Shown piece after piece: positions 31,274 through 40,379 of a stretch of 64,000 nucleotides of DNA. The translations under genes and the position numbers were made by a program. Source of the stretch: Asticcacaulis solisilvae (GTDB lineage Bacteria; Pseudomonadota; Alphaproteobacteria; Caulobacterales; Caulobacteraceae); the NCBI RefSeq assembly GCF_017875235.1, contig NZ_JAGGMI010000006.1:124001-188000 (forward strand), given 5' to 3'. The notes under the pieces are model-generated. The model was not told where the DNA came from and ran no database searches. It saw nothing but the letters and a program-made list of their open reading frames with translations. The stretch's first letter is position 1, and each line of letters opens with the position of its first letter.

Positions 31274-33196
31274 TTAGTTCTTTGCAGGTTGCTCGTCCGG
31301 CTCATCCCACAGCCTGTCCCACCAGCTGAATTTCAAGATCAGCGTACAGGCCACGGCCAGACCCGCCGTCAGCCAGAACTTCTCCATCTCCTGGATGACC
31401 AGGAAGATGGCCGAGGCGGTAAGCGCGGTCTGCCAGACGACACCGATCAGCACATTGACCATGTCGATGGCAAAGTTGCGGTTGGGCTGGGCGTCTGGCT
31501 CGTCTTCGCGCAACGCCCTGAGCACCGGGCCCCAGAACCCCCACGGGCGGGTTTTCTTATAGAATTCCTTGAGCGTCGCCATGTCGGTCGGTTTGGTAAC
31601 CAGCGAGCCGATAATGGCCACTGCCATGCAGGCGATAAACAGCCACGGGAAGGCCGCAAGGGCATCGATCTTCACACCCGTATACTCAAACGGCAGCACC
31701 ATATAGATGGCCGCCACGACGCCCAGCGCCATGCTCGCGGCATAGCCTGTACCGTTCAGCCTCCACCAATACCATTTGACGACATTGGCGACCGTGTAGC
31801 CGCCGTAAAGGCCGGTCGTGATCCAGGTGATGACCTCATTGATCGAGTTGAGCTGCCAGCCAATGAAGGCGGCGATGACGGCAAACAGGAAGGAGGTCAG
31901 GTAGCTCAGGCGCACCAGGGTCTTCTGGTCGGCGTCGGGCCGAAAATACTTGCGGTAGATGTCATTGACGACATAGGCGGGCGCGGCGTTCAACGAGGCC
32001 GAATAGGTCGCCATGAAGGCCGAGAGCAGGCCAGCCAAAGCGATGCCCAGCAGGCCCGGCGGCATGAATTCATGCACCACCCACGGCAGGATGGCGTCGA
32101 AATCACCCGAGAACGGCTTGCCGGCAGCGACGGCGTCCGCCTGAAGCTGCGTCCAGTAGGGGCCGATGAAGACCAGCGCCAGGACCGCCATGCCGGCGAT
32201 CATCAGGTAGCGCGGGAACAGCAGGACCAGATTGACGAAGCCCGACACCTTGGCGGCTTCGGTCGGCGACTTGGCCGACAGCAGGCGTTGCATGTCGTAG
32301 TTGGGAGCAGGTCCCGCCATGGCCTTGAAGAAGCCCTGGAAGATCATCAGGCCCATGAAGATGGCGAACAGGGAATGGCCTTCGTTCTCGATCGTCTTGA
32401 TGGCCGAAGTCGCGACGACCTTGTTTTCGGGTCTAGCGGCATCCGCCACGCCTTGCCAGTCAAGGCCGAGCGTCCAGCCGAAACCGATCTCGTTCCAGGT
32501 GGAGGGCACCGCGGCCTTGAGCATTTCCGGCGTGACCATGGTCATGGCCATCCAGGCAATGGCGACACAGACGATCAACTTGATGAAGAATTGCAGAATC
32601 TCGGTCATGACGACCGAGTACATGCCGCCCTTGACCGAATAGACGGTTGTCAGCGCCACGACGATCAGGCCGTAGATCTTGTCGTTGATATGCGGATCGG
32701 CCGAGAAGCGCCACGGGCTGAATTCCGCCGCCAGCTTGCCGATGCCCAAAAAGCCAAAGGCCAGCATGCCGACGACCATGATGAGCGCGAAGACGACATT
32801 GATCAGGTGCGAGGCGCGCGCGCCCAGGCCATCGCCAAAGCGGAAGGTGATCCATTCGGCGCCCGTCAGCTTGCCCGACCGCCGCAGCCAGACGGCCAGG
32901 AAGACCATCAGGAAGATCTGGTTGAAAACCGGCCACAGCCACGGAATGAAGACCGACTTCAGGCCGTAGACGACCAGAAGGCCGACCATCCACATGGTGC
33001 CGCCGACGTCGAACATGCCCGACGCATTGCTGAGGCCCAGCACCCACCACGGCAGCTTGTTGCCGGCCAGGAAGTAGTTGCTGAGGTTGCCCGAGGACAG
33101 CTTCGCCACCCAGAAACCCAGCGCGATAGTCACTAGGATATAGCCGGCGACTATGGCCAGGTCGATCGGCGCTAATCCTATTGAAGGCTGCGTCAT
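31274..33196 (-). CDS. Sodium:solute symporter (SSS family), probable mannobiose importer
   Basis: 640 residues with about 14 hydrophobic segments, beginning LAPIDLAIVAGYILVTIALGFWVAKL. SSS features include LPWWVLGLSNASGMFDVGGT near the first helices and the long C-terminal extension common in sugar-transporting members. It lies 41 bases downstream of the epimerase and in the same orientation. In Bacteroides fragilis a cation symporter sits in the equivalent mannobiose epimerase/GH130 cluster. Import of beta-1,4-mannobiose or a similar disaccharide is therefore the best inference. The transported sugar cannot be read from the sequence. Confidence 0.9.
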   Translation of the reverse strand: MTQPSIGLAPIDLAIVAGYILVTIALGFWVAKLSSGNLSNYFLAGNKLPWWVLGLSNASGMFDVGGTMWMVGLLVVYGLKSVFIPWLWPVFNQIFLMVFLAVWLRRSGKLTGAEWITFRFGDGLGARASHLINVVFALIMVVGMLAFGFLGIGKLAAEFSPWRFSADPHINDKIYGLIVVALTTVYSVKGGMYSVVMTEILQFFIKLIVCVAIAWMAMTMVTPEMLKAAVPSTWNEIGFGWTLGLDWQGVADAARPENKVVATSAIKTIENEGHSLFAIFMGLMIFQGFFKAMAGPAPNYDMQRLLSAKSPTEAAKVSGFVNLVLLFPRYLMIAGMAVLALVFIGPYWTQLQADAVAAGKPFSGDFDAILPWVVHEFMPPGLLGIALAGLLSAFMATYSASLNAAPAYVVNDIYRKYFRPDADQKTLVRLSYLTSFLFAVIAAFIGWQLNSINEVITWITTGLYGGYTVANVVKWYWWRLNGTGYAASMALGVVAAIYMVLPFEYTGVKIDALAAFPWLFIACMAVAIIGSLVTKPTDMATLKEFYKKTRPWGFWGPVLRALREDEPDAQPNRNFAIDMVNVLIGVVWQTALTASAIFLVIQEMEKFWLTAGLAVACTLILKFSWWDRLWDEPDEQPAKN

Positions 33197-33224
33197 GTGC
33201 GTTTCCCCTCGCCTGCTCTTTTGG

Positions 33225-33234
33225 CAAGCGCTTG
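33225..33234. promoter_or_regulatory. LacI-type palindrome between epimerase and symporter genes
   Basis: CAAGCGCTTG, a perfect 10-bp palindrome extended as TTGGCAAGCGCTTGTTG, lies 29-38 bp upstream of the symporter ATG and next to the epimerase stop. It could be an internal operator giving the symporter separate control. Confidence 0.45.
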
Positions 33235-33237
33235 TTG

Positions 33238-34434
33238 TTAACTTCGCGCCCGGCTCAGGCGTTCGTCAAGTTCGATCATGGCCCGACCATTGTGATACGG
33301 GCATTTCCACTGTCCGGCCGTGACCTGGGGTGGACGACCCGCCGTTCTGGCGTACCAGGTCCATTCCGAGCCGCCACCGGCGCCAAACTGCGTTTTCAGT
33401 ACGCGCCACAGCTTTTCGGTAGCGTCGAGATAAGCGCGATTGCGCGTCATCTCCCAGGCATTGACGAAGCCGACCATAGCTTCGGCCTGACCCCACCACT
33501 CGCCAGCGGGATCGAGCCGGCCATTGAAATCCTGCTCGTAGGCGATGCTGCCATCCATCATGACGCCGTGCCTTAGTGTCGCTTCAGCTAAGCCGATAAC
33601 CAGGGGCCTGACACTCGCTGTCAGCGCAGGTTCGCCCAGGACACATGCCGCCTCCCACATCAACCAGCTGGCTTCGATGTCGTGACCGTAGCTGACCGCA
33701 TGCGTCCGGTCGGTCCAGTCGAGGTCGTAAAACAGGCGCAGATGGTGGGTCCCGGCATCCACAAAGCGGGCGGCAAAGATATCGAGCGCGCGATAAAGCG
33801 CGGCATGGCTCAGATCGTCGGGCGCGACACGATGCAGATGCGCATAGGCCTCGACGATATGCAGGTGAGTGTTCATCGTCTTGGGCGCAGCGATGTCCTT
33901 GTCCGACAGGCGCGGGTCGTCGAGCGGCAACCAGACGGCGCTGAGCGCCTCGATATAGCCGCCGTGCATCGGCTCCCAGAAGCGCTCTTCGATCTCGCGC
34001 TGCAGCCGGCGCGCCATGGCCAGGGCGTCCAGATCCTGGGTGACGCGATAATATTCGGCAAAGGCGTAGACACCGAAGGCCTGGGCGTAGCCTTGCTTCT
34101 TGGCATCGATCACCTGGCCTTTGGCGTCAAGCTGCCAATAAAGGCCGCCGTGGTCAGGATCGACAAAAAACTTGCGGATATAGGCGGCCGTGCGGTGCGC
34201 CAGCTCCAGCGCTTCAGCTGACTCCAGATAGCTGGCCATGGCGCTGAAGAACCACAGCAGGCGCGTATAGAGAATGACGGCGCGCGGCGCGTCCTTGACC
34301 GGCTCTCCGTCGGAGCTGACCTCGCCCCAGAAGCCGCCATTGCCGTCGGGCATGTTGGCCTGCCACCAGTCAAGAATGGCGCGCGCCTCCTGGCGGGCCT
34401 CCTGCTGCAAGGTCATGGCCAGGGTATCGGCCAT
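33238..34434 (-). CDS. AGE-family 2-epimerase, probable mannobiose (cellobiose) 2-epimerase
   Basis: 398 residues of the (alpha/alpha)6 AGE fold. The three histidines known from cellobiose 2-epimerases are visible in context: NTHLHIVEAY (about 195), YGHDIEASWLMWEA (about 255), and KCPYHNGRAMIELD (about 385). WWGQAEAMVGF is also typical. The enzyme would convert beta-1,4-mannobiose to mannosyl-glucose, the substrate of the GH130 phosphorylase encoded upstream. Its ATG overlaps the GH130 stop by one base (TGATG). The N-acylglucosamine epimerase alternative is less likely given this partner. Confidence 0.9.
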   Translation of the reverse strand: MADTLAMTLQQEARQEARAILDWWQANMPDGNGGFWGEVSSDGEPVKDAPRAVILYTRLLWFFSAMASYLESAEALELAHRTAAYIRKFFVDPDHGGLYWQLDAKGQVIDAKKQGYAQAFGVYAFAEYYRVTQDLDALAMARRLQREIEERFWEPMHGGYIEALSAVWLPLDDPRLSDKDIAAPKTMNTHLHIVEAYAHLHRVAPDDLSHAALYRALDIFAARFVDAGTHHLRLFYDLDWTDRTHAVSYGHDIEASWLMWEAACVLGEPALTASVRPLVIGLAEATLRHGVMMDGSIAYEQDFNGRLDPAGEWWGQAEAMVGFVNAWEMTRNRAYLDATEKLWRVLKTQFGAGGGSEWTWYARTAGRPPQVTAGQWKCPYHNGRAMIELDERLSRARS

Positions 34435-35627
34435 CAGCCGGCAGCCTGTACGAACGCTTCGTTGCGGGCGATCAGGTCGATGCGCTGCTGGGCGCAGGCC
34501 GCCGAGGTTAGCGGATCGGCCGGCGTATTACAGCAGTAGTCGACCAGTTGCGCCACCGTCGAGGTCGCGACGTGCAGCCGGGTGTCGGAAGAGGCGTAGT
34601 AGATGAAGACCTTGCCGTTGTCCTCGATCCAGCCGTTGGCGAAGGTGACGTTTGAAACGTCACCCACCCGCTCCTCGCCCTCCGGCGCGATGAAATGACC
34701 GCCGGGGGCATGGGTGACGACCCACGGCTTTGCCAGGTCCGTCATGAACATGTAGAGCACGTAGCGCAGGCCGGCGGCGGTATTGCGCACGCCATGCGCC
34801 AGGTGCAGCCAGCCTTTCGGCGTCTTGATCGGCGTCGGGCCCTGGCCGTTCTTCAGCTCCTTGATGGTGTGGTAGACCTTGTTGTCGACAATGGTCTCTG
34901 CGTCGATGACGGCATTGGTCATGTCGTCGCACAGGCCCCAGCCAATGCCGCCGCCCGAACCAACGCTGATGAAGCCATCCTGCGGGCGCGTATAAAGCGC
35001 GTACTTGCCGTCGATAAACTCAGGGTGCAGCACGACATTGCGCTGCTGGCCGGAGTTGGTCTTCAGGTCGGGCAGGCGCTCCCAGGCGACCAGGTCCTTG
35101 GTACGGGCGATGCCGCATTGCGCGACCGCGGCCGACAGATCGTTCGGCTGGGTCAGGTCCTTGCGCTCGGTGCAGAACAGGCCGTAGATCCAGCCGTCTT
35201 CGTGCTGCGTCAGGCGCATGTCATAGACATTTGTGTCTGGTTCGTCTGTCTGGGGCAAGACGACCGGGCGCGGCCAGAAGCGGAAATTGTCGACGCCATT
35301 GGGACTTTGCGCGATCGCGAAGAAAGACTTGCGGTCATTGCCCTCGACGCGAACGACGACAAGATACTTGCCGTCCCCGTTATTTGGCCAGAGGATGGCC
35401 CCGGCATTGAAGGTCGCGTTTACGCCCAGCCGCTCCATCATGAACGGGTTCGTTTCGGGGTTGAGGTCGTAGCGCCATTCCAATGGTACATGCGCCGCCG
35501 TCACCACCGGATTGCCATAGCGGCTATATATGCCATTATCATGGGCCAGGGGTGCATTCGGCCTGGCCAGCAGGGCATCGTGTGCCGTTTTCAACCCGGC
35601 CAATCGGTTTACTGCATCGTAGCCCAT
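34434..35627 (-). CDS. GH130 glycoside phosphorylase, probable 4-O-beta-D-mannosyl-D-glucose phosphorylase
   Basis: 397 residues, close to Bacteroides MGP (about 390). Five-bladed propeller features of GH130 subfamily 1: [54 protein letters not shown], and [17 protein letters not shown], where the aspartate is the likely general acid. It would cleave mannosyl-glucose with phosphate to mannose-1-phosphate and glucose. It is the first gene of a minus-strand operon with the epimerase and symporter. No endo-mannanase is in the window. Confidence 0.92.
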
Positions 35628-35854: not shown

Positions 35855-37537
35855 ATGCGTAACTTTCTTACCGACCTGAAAGTGCTGAAAAAGATCAGCC
35901 TTGCCTTTCTTGTTCTGATTGGCTCAAGCCTCATCGTCAGCGGTGTCTGCTGGACGTCTCTGTCAAAACTGGAAACCACTTCAAAGTGGACAACCCATAC
36001 GTTCAAAGTGATCTCGTCGCTGAATCAGATCGTCGAGGCCATGGTCAATCAGGAAACCGGCGTCCGCGGCTATCTCGTATCCGGCGACCGCGACTTCCTG
36101 GCGCCGAAAATAGCTGGTGAGAAGATGCTTAACGAGGCGCTCAGCTCTGTCCAGACGCTGACGGCCGACAATGCCACCCAGCAAGCGCGTATTGCCGAGG
36201 TCAGGGACCTTGCCACCACCTGGGACAGCACGGTCGCCGCCAAGGAAATCGAACTGATGTCCAACCCGGCGACAATAGAGGCCGCGCGCCAGTTGGAAGC
36301 TTCGGGCGCCGGTAAGTCGTCCATGGACGCCATCCGCGCCAAGGTCAGCGTGATGATCAGTGAAGAAGCCGCCCTGCTCGAAAAACGCTCGAAGGAGGCG
36401 CAGGCCGCGACCATCTTCGCCCGCGTCACCACCATTGCCGGTGGCCTCGTCATTCTGGCTCTTGCCTTTGCCGCGCTGACCGGCCTGCATCGGGTTCTCG
36501 TCATGCCGTTGAACGCCCTGACCCGCGCCATGCAAGCGACCGCAGAAGGCCAGGAAGGCTCTGACGTTCCCGGCCAGGAACGCCGCGACGAGCTAGGCGA
36601 CATGGCCCGCGCTTTCAACGCGAATGCCGAACGTATCGCCCGCCTGGCCGAGGCCCAGCGCGCCAATGAAGACCGCCTGGCCGTCGAACGCCGCAACGCC
36701 ATGCTGACCATGGCCGACAATTTCGAAAAATCGGTCGGCGGCGTCGTCTCGCTCGTCTCGTCGGCGGCAACCGAAATGCAGGCGACGGCCAGCCAGCTGA
36801 CCTCGACCGCGCAGGAGACCTCGGTCCAGGCGCAGTCCGTATCGGCAGCCGCCGAGGAAGCCGGCACCAATGTAACCTCGGTCGCCAGTTCGGCCGAGGA
36901 ACTGGGTGCATCGATCAGCGAGATCGGCCGTCAGGTTGAACGGTCGGCAGAGAAGTCCAAGCTGGCCGTGCGCCAAGCCCAGGCGACCTCGACCGTCGTC
37001 AAGGAACTGAGCGAAGCCGCCACGCGCATCAACGACATCGTCGCCATGATTTCGGGCATTGCCTCCCAGACCAACCTCCTGGCGCTCAATGCCACCATTG
37101 AATCGGCGCGCGCCGGCGAAGCCGGAAAGGGGTTCGCTGTCGTCGCCTCGGAAGTGAAGACCTTGGCATCGCAGACTTCGCGCGCCACCGACGAGATTTC
37201 GGTCCAGATCGCCAATATCCAGAATACGACCGCGCGGGCGGTCGACGCCATCGGAGCGATAACCAGCTCGATCGTTGAAATCGACGAAGTCTCGAACGCC
37301 ATCGCTGCCGCGGTCGACCAGCAGGCCGCCGCGACCAATGAGATCGTCCAGGCGGTCACCCTGGCTTCGAGCGGCACCACCGAGGTGACATCGAACATCA
37401 CCGGTGTTGCCCGGTCGGCCGAAGAAACCGGTGCCGGCGCGTCGCAGGTCCTGTCCGCCTCCTCGGAATTGGCCGATCAGGCCGCCATGTTGTCTAATGA
37501 AGTACAGAACTTCCTGTCGACCGTCCGGGCGGCTTAA
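35855..37537 (+). CDS. Methyl-accepting chemotaxis protein with CHASE3 sensor
   Basis: 560 residues. TM1 about residues 13-32 ([18 protein letters not shown]), a periplasmic CHASE3-like domain with [21 protein letters not shown]2 near 190-212, a HAMP region, then the coiled-coil signalling domain with hairpin tip [20 protein letters not shown]. It ends FLSTVRAA without a CheR-docking pentapeptide. The promoter carries a perfect CtrA box. The position between the GH130 operon and the glucokinase-like genes suggests, but does not prove, a link to sugar taxis. Confidence 0.93.
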
Positions 37538-37554
37538 AAGCCAAAGCTAAAAAG

Positions 37555-37582
37555 CCTCCCGGCCGGTGATCGGCCCGGGAGG
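37555..37582. terminator. Bidirectional terminator between chemoreceptor and glucokinase-like genes
   Basis: A GC stem (37555-37564 with 37572-37582, one bulged C) is flanked by TTTT on the plus strand and by CTTTTTAGC on the minus strand. It serves the convergent genes on both sides. Confidence 0.8.
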
Positions 37583-37602
37583 TTTTCGGGCGCCTTGCCC
37601 AC

Positions 37603-38553
37603 TCAGTCGAACAGCGTCGCCAGGCCGACGATTTCCAGGTCGCGCGCCTGGGTCTGATAGACCGGCACGTCGGACACGTAGTTGCTGAGTCGGCCCTTGT
37701 CCGCATACCGCTTGCAGAAAACGGCCGGATCAAAAAGATCGCCCAGCAGGTCCATCAAGTCGCCAGTCAGGTAGATACCGCCGCGCGCACCCAGCATCAG
37801 GGCGACATCCGACGCCATGGCCGCCAGCCAGCCGCTGCACATGGCAATGGCTTCGAGCGCGACGGGATCGCCGATATTCGCGAGCGCAATGACCTCTTCC
37901 GGCGTGTTGGCCTGGCTGTCGCCGCCGTCGACCGTATTCAACGCTTGGAACAGTTCGACCAGGCCCGTCAGGGAAATGACGAATTCCCGCGCCACATGGC
38001 CATGCTTTTCCTTGAGTACGTTATAGACCTGCCATTCGCGATCGCTGGTGACGGGCAGGTCGGAGTGTCCGCCTTCGCATGGAATGGCGGCCCAGTTGCC
38101 GGCGCCGTCGGGCGCCAGCGCCGCCAGGCCCAGGCCGTGGTGCGGCCCCAGCACCGCCATGACCTGTTCTTCCAGGGGCTCGTCGCCGCACAGCTTCACG
38201 CTTTCGTCCTTGCGCAGGCGCGGTATGGCCAGGGCGCGGGCAACGAAATTGTTGACCAGGTTGACGCGCTGGATCGACAGGAGATGGCGGACATCGTCGC
38301 GGCCGAGCTTCAGCAGCCCCTTTTCCGGCAGCTGGATCGCGCCGTGACGTTCCCAGCCGCGCGACGACAGGGCCGCGCCGATCAGCTTGGGGCGATCGTG
38401 GGCCGCCAGAAAATCCAGCACCGCCTCATCGAAATCCTTCTTGCCGGAGCAGGAGTAGAGGGTGGCGTCGCTGGGGCGGCGGCCGGGTGTACCCAGGGCC
38501 AGCTTCATGTAGGAGCCGAAGGAGAAGTCACAAAGAAGGATGTGATCCGTCAT
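37603..38553 (-). CDS. Glucokinase-fold protein, degenerate (lacks ATP signature and catalytic Asp)
   Basis: 316 residues, aligning end to end with E. coli-type glucokinase. Sugar-site features are kept: CEGGHSDL (for GEGGH), HVAREFVIS with the conserved glutamate, and a C-terminus like DKGRLSNYVSDVPVYQT. But the N-terminal phosphate loop DxGGTN reads DFSFGSY, the second phosphate motif GTGLG reads PHHGLG, and the catalytic Asp of INDF is Asn (LVNNFVARALAIP). It is therefore probably not an active kinase. It lies 103 bp downstream of a paralogue with similar changes. A sugar-binding regulatory role is one possibility (inference). Confidence 0.85.
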   Translation of the reverse strand: MTDHILLCDFSFGSYMKLALGTPGRRPSDATLYSCSGKKDFDEAVLDFLAAHDRPKLIGAALSSRGWERHGAIQLPEKGLLKLGRDDVRHLLSIQRVNLVNNFVARALAIPRLRKDESVKLCGDEPLEEQVMAVLGPHHGLGLAALAPDGAGNWAAIPCEGGHSDLPVTSDREWQVYNVLKEKHGHVAREFVISLTGLVELFQALNTVDGGDSQANTPEEVIALANIGDPVALEAIAMCSGWLAAMASDVALMLGARGGIYLTGDLMDLLGDLFDPAVFCKRYADKGRLSNYVSDVPVYQTQARDLEIVGLATLFD

Positions 38554-38656
38554 AGCGGTCCCGGTAAATCGGATGATCAGGAAAATAATTTGGTAAATTA
38601 AGGCAGCGAGAAAGGAAAGCGCTAGAATGCCTGGTCGCGTTTTTTCCGGGACCGGA

Positions 38657-39604
38657 TCAATCGAACAAGGTTGCCAGGCCGATCACTTCCATGTCCGGCG
38701 CAAGCGTCCGGAACACCGGAATATCGCGGACATATTCGCTAAGCCGGCCCTTGTCCTGATAGCGGGCGATGAAGGCATCGACGTCAAACAGGTCGCCGAT
38801 CAAGTCGAAATAGTCACCCGTCAGATAGATGCCGCCGCGCGATCCGGTAATCAGCGCCACGTCCGACGCCATGACCGCCAGCCAGTTCATCGACAGATTT
38901 ATGACCTGAAGCGCGCGATCGTCGCCGGTTACGGCGCGGGCAACGACCTCCTCCGGTCCGGGCGCGGCAGAGTCGTCGCCATCGCCCGCGGCCAGCGCAC
39001 GCCAGACATCGACGAGGCCCGGGATCGAGATGACGCGCTCACGCGATACGTGACCGTATTTGGCCGCCAGGAATTTATAGACGTCGTATTCCAGCTGGCT
39101 GTCGATCGTCAGGTCCGAGTGTCCGCCTTCGCAAGGCATGGCGGTATAGCCGCCCATGCCGTCCGGCGCCAGGCTGGCCTGGCCTAAGCCGCTGTGGGAA
39201 TTGATGAGTGTTATGACCTGCTCGGCCATCTCCTCGCCGCCGCAGATCTTCACGCGCTCGTCTCCCCCAAGGCGCGGGATGGCCAGGGCCTTGGCGACGC
39301 AGTCATTGACAAGGTTAAGGCGCTGAACGCCCAGGAATTCGCGCATGTCGGCGCGCCCGACCTGGAACTTATGGTTCGGCATGGCCATGACGCCATGCTG
39401 CTCCCAGCCGCCGGCGGAAATGGCCGCGCCCTTGAGCGCCGGCTTTCCCTGAGCGTCCAGGAAATTGCTGATGGCCGTCTTGAAGTCCTCGAGGCTGTCG
39501 CAGGTGTAGTGCGTCGACTCGTCCGGCCGGCCGCCCCTCGGCGCCAGAGCAAGCTTCATGTAGAGGCCATTGCTGATGTCACTCAGCAGCACTTGGTCAG
39601 CCAT
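38657..39604 (-). CDS. Glucokinase-fold protein, degenerate ATP site
   Basis: 315 residues, a clear paralogue of the gene downstream. The N-terminal phosphate loop is LLSDISNGLYMKLAL instead of DxGGTNxRLAL, and the second phosphate motif GTGLG is HSGLG. The catalytic aspartate is kept (LVNDCVAKALAIP), as are CEGGHSDL and the glutamate in HVSRERVIS. It ends DKGRLSEYVRDIPVFRT. Phosphotransfer is doubtful but sugar binding plausible. A LacI-type operator palindrome lies 10-25 bp upstream of its start. It probably belongs to the same minus-strand sugar regulon as the GH130 operon beyond the chemoreceptor gene. Confidence 0.85.
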   Translation of the reverse strand: MADQVLLSDISNGLYMKLALAPRGGRPDESTHYTCDSLEDFKTAISNFLDAQGKPALKGAAISAGGWEQHGVMAMPNHKFQVGRADMREFLGVQRLNLVNDCVAKALAIPRLGGDERVKICGGEEMAEQVITLINSHSGLGQASLAPDGMGGYTAMPCEGGHSDLTIDSQLEYDVYKFLAAKYGHVSRERVISIPGLVDVWRALAAGDGDDSAAPGPEEVVARAVTGDDRALQVINLSMNWLAVMASDVALITGSRGGIYLTGDYFDLIGDLFDVDAFIARYQDKGRLSEYVRDIPVFRTLAPDMEVIGLATLFD

Positions 39605-39613
39605 TTCCGTGCC

Positions 39614-39629
39614 TTGTAAACGTTTCCGG
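39614..39629. promoter_or_regulatory. LacI/GalR-type operator upstream of the glucokinase-like pair
   Basis: TTGTAAACGTTTCCGG contains the perfect palindrome AAACGTTT with central CG, typical of LacI/GalR operators. It lies 10-25 bp from the ATG at 39604, where it would block transcription or initiation. Confidence 0.55.
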
Positions 39630-39728
39630 ACTTTTTATGTTTTATTTTATTTAACTACGAAAGGTTAATTTTGGGTACTTGATATTTAGCGGCCAAGGGC
39701 CCAATGACCACGGACAGAAAGGCTTGCC

Positions 39729-40379
39729 ATGTCCGTCTCCGCCAAGATCTGTGGTATTTCCACCCTTTCCGCCGCCCAAACGGCGATTGCGGAAGGCACA
39801 GCCTTTCTCGGCTTTATTCATTTCGCCAAAAGCCCGCGCCATCTCGACCTGACAGCGATGTCGGAGCTGATGCTATCGCTTCGGGCATCCGGCGCAACAC
39901 AAAAGCTGGTGAGCGTCGTCGTCGATCCTGACGATGCCATGATTGAAGCGCTGCGCGATCATGTCAAACCCGACCTTATACAGTTGCACGGCAAGGAAAC
40001 GCCGGACCGCGTCGCTCAGGTCCGCCAGGCGATGGGCATTCCCGTCGTCAAGGCGCTCAGCCTCAGCGAAGCCGCCGACCTGACCGCCGCGCAGGCCTTC
40101 GACAATGTGGCCGACTATCTGCTGTTCGACGCCAAGCCGCCCAAGGACGCAAGCCTGCCGGGCGGTCTCGGCCTTAGCTTCGACTGGACATTGCTGACCG
40201 GCTATGCAGGCGAAAAGCCATGGTTCCTGGCCGGCGGCCTTACGCCCGATAATGTCGCAGAAGCCGTTACGATAAGCGGTGCAAAATACGTCGATGTCTC
40301 CTCAGGCGTTGAATCGGCGCCCGGAGTGAAGGACCCCAATCTGATTTCGGGCTTCCTTCGTACTGTAAAAGCGCTATAA
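39729..40379 (+). CDS. trpF: Phosphoribosylanthranilate isomerase
   Basis: 216 residues. Isomerises phosphoribosylanthranilate to CdRP in tryptophan synthesis. Motifs: AKICGISTLSAAQTAI (catalytic Cys), VVDPDDAMIEAL, LIQLHGKETPDRVAQVR, LLFDAKPP, WFLAGGLTPDNVAEAV and VDVSSGVESAPGVKD (catalytic Asp region). Heads the plus-strand series trpF-trpB-trpA-accD. Confidence 0.97.
   Translation: MSVSAKICGISTLSAAQTAIAEGTAFLGFIHFAKSPRHLDLTAMSELMLSLRASGATQKLVSVVVDPDDAMIEALRDHVKPDLIQLHGKETPDRVAQVRQAMGIPVVKALSLSEAADLTAAQAFDNVADYLLFDAKPPKDASLPGGLGLSFDWTLLTGYAGEKPWFLAGGLTPDNVAEAVTISGAKYVDVSSGVESAPGVKDPNLISGFLRTVKAL

Follow-up and report, generated by a model that had tools for sequence, protein, structure and literature searches.

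In the window analysed here (the whole 64,000-nucleotide stretch of Asticcacaulis solisilvae DNA), two adjacent genes (Table 1) encode glucokinase-family proteins, A and B, that keep the residues of the glucose site and have lost the loops of the nucleotide site, and degenerate copies of this family are present in every Asticcacaulis genome that was searched. We think it fairly probable that A and B are sugar- or sugar-phosphate-binding pseudokinases, which would lack kinase activity, would still bind their ligand, and would act by domain closure on a partner.

Table 1. Features at and around the A/B locus, with positions in the window
Feature	Position	Strand	Remarks
Putative pseudo-glucokinase A	37603..38553	-	316 aa; PF02685 match and motif reading
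Putative pseudo-glucokinase B	38657..39604	-	315 aa; PF02685 match and motif reading
Intergenic stretch separating the divergent genes B and trpF	39605..39728	.	124 bases
trpF (PRA isomerase; Pfam PRAI)	39729..40379	+	constant divergent neighbour
SSF transporter, GlcNAc-2-epimerase family and GH130 genes	31274-35627	-	tight cluster; 2-6 kb from A/B
Chemoreceptor with CHASE3, HAMP and MCP domains	35855-37537	+	convergent with A; between A and the probable mannobiose genes

Both proteins match the Pfam Glucokinase family (PF02685) over nearly their whole length, and because the scores (185.4 bits for A and 198.4 bits for B) stand against a cut-off of 22.1, the match is not a matter of chance; the two full-length tandem frames of this family described in the initial annotation are thus present. 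The equivalog model TIGR00749 (NCBIfam glucokinase) gives A 152.5 and B 155.1 against a cut-off of 225.45, a score that does not discriminate here because the canonical glucokinase of the same genome (L001) also falls below it with 213.4. Glucokinases are likewise the solved relatives of B by sequence search (five sequences). The sole Pfam domain in either protein at E-values up to 0.1 is PF02685, with neither a ROK match nor an N-terminal helix-turn-helix, and A and B are therefore without a DNA-binding domain.

Residues N99, D100, E157, H160 and E187 (E. coli numbering) serve sugar binding and catalysis, and the loops serve ATP binding. The first P-loop reads DFSFGSY in A and DISNGLY in B for DxGGTN, the second reads PHHGLG in A and SHSGLG in B for GTGLG, and GGI has become TGD in both; the sugar-site motif CEGGHSDL is likewise present in both. 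At the individual positions A has S11, S13, Y14, N99, N100, H136, H137, E157, H160, E187 and D263, and B has S11, L13, Y14, N99, D100, H136, S137, E157, H160, E187 and D263, so that all four glucose-site residues (N99, E157, H160 and E187) are kept in the two proteins. The base aspartate is replaced by asparagine in A (VNNF) and kept as D100 in B (VNDC). An ATP site destroyed, a sugar-site motif retained and a catalytic aspartate replaced in one protein were what the initial annotation had claimed, and each of the motifs quoted was confirmed, the last substitution in A only. The available portion of a study of E. coli Glk (PMC12312565) describes H160 and E187 as bonding to glucose, residues 99-101, Gly138 and 157-160 as among those shifting on phosphate binding, and H183, S185 and R286 as part of the phosphate site; that portion reports no structure of the enzyme with ATP. 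B has all three of these phosphate-site residues, and A has alanine at 185.

A and B are two of six PF02685 genes in the genome, five of them degenerate, and the remaining degenerate copies lie on contigs C4 (L002), C1 (L005) and C2 (L006). The sixth gene, L001, is a canonical glk on contig C1, near neither A nor B, in which DIGGTN, GAGTGFG and AGGI are intact; it is flanked by edd-like and eda-like ORFs (an edd-glk-eda order, with the ORFs assigned by eye), and is the separate kinase, encoded elsewhere, whose existence had been surmised. Identity to this protein is 22 per cent for A, 23 per cent for B and 20-28 per cent over the five degenerate copies, and in trees canonical Glk forms a clade separate from the degenerate copies.

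Each of the 25 Asticcacaulis genomes searched yielded one or more degenerate PF02685 copies; by hand count the copies number 55, of which 52 are intact. The three broken ones are on contig 27 of G001, at the trpF site of G016, and copy B of G022, whose pieces fall below the length limit of the motif table, so that it was counted by position and match; given that three of 55 are broken, single copies can be dispensable. Besides this genome, G002, G003, G009, G011 and G021 carry the tandem pair at the trpF site, as does G022 with B broken; the initial annotation had suggested looking for the pair in Caulobacterales genomes. Motif reading confirms a canonical Glk in 22 genomes of the 25 (23 proteins), and G005, G008 and G014 have a candidate match only. 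A contig search with B alone returned no relative, and an alignment query returned 26 loci.

Beyond Asticcacaulis, nine degenerate copies occur in six genomes of another Caulobacteraceae genus (g22), which may be Caulobacter and was represented by 21 genomes in the search; among the other 15, one match was read and is canonical. Canonical-type motifs characterise all seven proteins read elsewhere in the family (L146-L150, L154, L155), among which one g22 genome is represented. In samples at the level of order and class (299 and 385 genomes, E up to 1e-50), all matches read outside the two genera, 7 of 7 and 29 of 48 respectively (36 of 55), have intact motifs apart from small changes. As this reading covered matches at E up to 1e-50, further degenerate lines could lie among weaker ones.

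Of the intact Asticcacaulis copies, 52 in number, all 52 have N99, 45 have E157, 51 have H160 and 49 have E187, and 45 combine the four. G11, by the same count, is kept in one copy, G136 in 17 and G263 in five; G11 and T13 are both intact in none of the 52, the full set of G11, T13, G136, T137 and G263 is likewise found in none, and each copy has lost three to five of these residues. T137 is often replaced by a bulky or basic residue (R in 16, H in 14 and Y in 7 of the 52). Among 74 canonical controls the five nucleotide residues are complete in 71, and the four sugar residues and D100 in all 74. D100 is kept in 24 of the 52 degenerate copies (B and 23 others) and the base is lost in 28 (A and 27 others). 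H183, S185 and R286 are all kept in 32 of the 52 and in two of the nine g22 copies, and at these positions all 23 canonical Glk proteins of the genus carry R, T and P. Other residues are specific to the family, E67 and R83 being fixed in 52 of 52 and W66 present in 50, where canonical Glk mostly has V at 67, a mixture at 83 and P at 66. The g22 copies hold the four sugar residues in seven of nine, the five nucleotide residues in none and D100 in eight, and they have P66 (9/9) and E67 (6/9) and are without W66 and R83. The motif table behind these figures holds proteins of at least 280 aa, leaving out shorter ones; the residue counts leave out L051 and L085 (broken) and L093, L095 and L096 (remote or partial), and one analysis of family-specific residues also leaves out L155 and L092.

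Estimates of dN/dS (Nei-Gojobori) range from 0.031 to 0.254 in 17 pseudokinase pairs, one of them with saturated dS, and from 0.005 to 0.052 in eight pairs of canonical Glk. Purifying selection on the pseudokinases is clear, if less strong than on the enzyme, and with dN/dS of 0.03-0.25 the proteins are being maintained, which bears out selection on the two full-length frames as proposed in the initial annotation. In trees of 102 and of 73 proteins all degenerate rows fall in one group (support of 100/100 and 100/97, respectively). It might be suspected that this grouping is an artefact of convergent losses, a possibility that was rejected for Asticcacaulis because its clade stays at 98/92 when the motif columns are removed. 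The union of Asticcacaulis with g22, by comparison, drops to 36 per cent of bootstrap trees (a rough value, as the bootstrap had not settled) from 99 per cent with all columns, and a single origin is for that reason claimed for Asticcacaulis alone. The 73-row trees, with and without motif columns, draw on 73 of 140 rows thinned by hand, with L115 left out. One origin for the Asticcacaulis copies is supported by these trees.

In each of the 25 Asticcacaulis genomes searched, trpF has a degenerate glk-like gene as its divergent neighbour (23 from gene maps, G006 and G014 by tblastn), intact in 24 and broken in G016. When eight other Caulobacteraceae genera were sampled with 20 chosen genomes, a tblastn search with one glk-like query found no such gene within ~1.5 kb of trpF. 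In the window trpF is followed by trpB-like and trpA-like ORFs (by eye). Directly on the far side from trpF, mscL is present in 12 of the 25 (10 maps, with G006 and G014 by tblastn); among the neighbours, MscL and the IHF/HU-type protein were named by Pfam on one member each, and rpsA and cmk by eye. The trpF-facing copies are spread over more than one clade inside the Asticcacaulis group, so that they need not be a single orthologous line. A consensus scan of 37400-39900 returned no sigma-70-like promoter or terminator, and upstream motifs of the CtrA type are found at 0 of 52 copies, with GANTC at 18 of 52 versus 5 of 36 canonical genes (raw counts). When a shared partner was sought in 52 neighbourhoods (including that of L110, where the glk-like gene itself was missed by the gene caller), trpF alone recurred widely and the neighbourhoods otherwise differed.

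The predicted structures are those of a glucokinase. AlphaFold2 models, computed from the window proteins together with sequences of related loci, have a mean pLDDT of 92.7 for A and 92.9 for B, with a pTM of 0.90 in each case, and the best PDB matches in Foldseek are bacterial glucokinases for A (3vpz, 1q18 and 1sz2, with a TM of 0.89 to E. coli Glk) and E. coli Glk for B (1q18, TM 0.91, and 1sz2). The glucokinase fold put forward in the initial annotation is supported by these models.

Relatives at one chromosomal site across the genus suggest that the proteins serve something other than catalysis, perhaps sugar sensing or regulation. Sugar residues that are held, nucleotide residues that are scattered, a base lost in 28 of 52 copies, newly fixed residues, low dN/dS and a fixed site form a pattern that, in sequence terms, fits a ligand-binding pseudokinase. 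The family would descend from a glucokinase gene of group II (the E. coli type); early in the history of Asticcacaulis it would have reached its site next to trpF, and it would then have multiplied. A and B would no longer use ATP or phosphorylate sugar, and a hexose or hexose phosphate would most likely still be bound in the kept cleft, with the two lobes perhaps closing on this ligand as they do in hexokinases (PMC8256278). The closed or open form could then signal to a protein partner, either a regulator or, in a mixed oligomer, canonical Glk. On this view the role would be one of signalling or regulation.

Alternatively, the copies might be regulatory subunits of canonical glucokinase, forming mixed dimers with true Glk or with each other and tuning its activity. 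Recombinant TbHXK2 of trypanosomes is reported to be inactive alone and active when mixed with TbHXK1 (PMC8256278), and in E. coli Glk a stacking contact joins F287 to H160 of the partner chain (PMC12312565), which places the active site near the dimer contact; K284, G285 and R286 are present in 46, 49 and 40 of the 52 copies, and a canonical partner confirmed by motif exists in 22 of 25 genomes. However, the canonical Glk of the genus has another contact motif (P286 in 23/23 and A285 in 22/23), its identity to A and B is no more than 22 and 23 per cent, and its gene lies away from both; we consider such a subunit unlikely. It is improbable to the same degree that the copies are a set of soluble hexose or hexose-phosphate receptors in which T137 substitutions and the phosphate-site residues (32/52) would enable certain copies to recognise sugar phosphates through domain closure, with a different output for every copy (such as the chemoreceptor, receiver or other genes adjoining some of them). 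An enzyme of altered chemistry, in which D100-bearing copies such as B would use another phosphate donor or substrate, appears slightly less likely again. Because B and 23 others keep the base, weak or altered activity of these copies is conceivable, and B combines N99, D100, E157, H160 and E187 (with D100 in 24/52) and is among the 32 of 52 with H183, S185 and R286; against this, G11 and T13 are never intact together (0/52), G263 survives in 5/52, and A and 27 other copies are without the base.

Decaying glk duplicates, drifting to loss, would account for the three broken copies (G001 contig 27, the trpF site of G016 and copy B of G022) and for a dN/dS above that of canonical Glk, but not readily for values at or below 0.254 in 17 of 17 pairs (one with saturated dS), for conserved family-specific residues in a family with 52 of 55 copies intact, or for a trpF site that is occupied in all 25 genomes, by an intact copy in 24. 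Drifting pseudogenes are disfavoured by dN/dS, and we hold this reading to be very improbable. Least credible is a part for A and B in a mannobiose pathway, sensing or handling the glucose released. The SSF, epimerase-family and GH130 genes, probably a cluster for mannobiose use, do lie 2-6 kb off in the window, and the initial annotation tied A and B to them; yet none of the 51 further neighbourhoods compared contains a relative of the trio, the chemoreceptor gene intervenes on the opposite strand, and five other genomes have an intact pair beside trpF without a mannobiose operon. The link was rejected because the neighbours are not conserved across the 52 neighbourhoods.

Several known systems may inform the pseudokinase model. 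A and B resemble E. coli Glk (group II, PF02685; 1q18, 1sz2) in fold, length and N99, E157, H160 and E187, and B also in H183, S185 and R286, but differ from it in the lost nucleotide loops and GG(I), in the base aspartate lost from A, and in the family-specific W66-E67 and R83. Canonical Asticcacaulis Glk (L001) is of the same Pfam family and genome and, unlike A and B, is intact at DIGGTN, GAGTGFG and AGGI. In the ROK family of sugar-responsive repressors a kinase-like body is used for regulation, and two of these (Mlc, 1z6r, and Lmo0178, 5f7q) appear with the same superfamily fold in the Foldseek lists of A and B, which, in contrast, lack a DNA-binding domain and have group II Glk, not ROK, as their match. 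Eukaryotes have non-catalytic proteins with a hexokinase fold, and the bacterial examples known are ROK repressors with a DNA-binding domain. Sensing or regulation apart from catalysis is described for Trypanosoma brucei HK2 and Arabidopsis HXK1 S177A (PMC8256278), which share the hexokinase fold but are eukaryotic and of another branch. Our literature search found no non-catalytic case in bacterial PF02685 and, by title and abstract, no description of such a pseudo-glucokinase family, subscription journals being mostly outside its scope.

If the model holds, these stand-alone group II pseudo-glucokinases, genus-wide, multi-copy and with the sugar site preserved, would represent a novel type of sugar receptor in bacteria. 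Since one genome has both copies that keep the base aspartate and copies that lack it, the way in which catalysis was lost and binding retained could be tested there directly. Metabolic models could overcount glucose kinases, because family-based annotation would name these copies glucokinase (the Pfam cut-off is passed).

The genes adjoining other copies hint at signalling in places, with no partner constant among them (raw counts). MCP genes lie near three loci, and this genome has 14 MCP matches. A two-receiver protein (assigned by Pfam on the L151 member only) is found beside copies of two clades (L151:11046-11816, L109:7112-7897 and L056:7209-7994), and in L109 a second trpB-like gene also adjoins the degenerate copy. 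One clade has three members (the C4 copy of this genome and those of G003 and G021), and divergently upstream of each lies a gene for a protein of 433-509 aa (L151:8521-9834(-), L099:9123-10424(+) and L098:5265-6794(-), the last matched by eye); Pfam gives no match for the proteins of L151 and L098. A short PilZ-like protein (cluster c23) is encoded beside five of the nine g22 copies (L137, L138, L140, L141 and L143), a call made from the L137 member alone at 22.8 bits against a cut-off of 22.5.

E157 is lost in seven of the 52 copies, including one of the five in this genome (L006/L153). Four of these seven lie among glycoside-hydrolase-like genes, as judged by eye: L153 is accompanied by GH10-like and GH43-like ORFs, and L107 and two syntenic relatives (L108 and L111) have a galactosidase-like ORF nearby.
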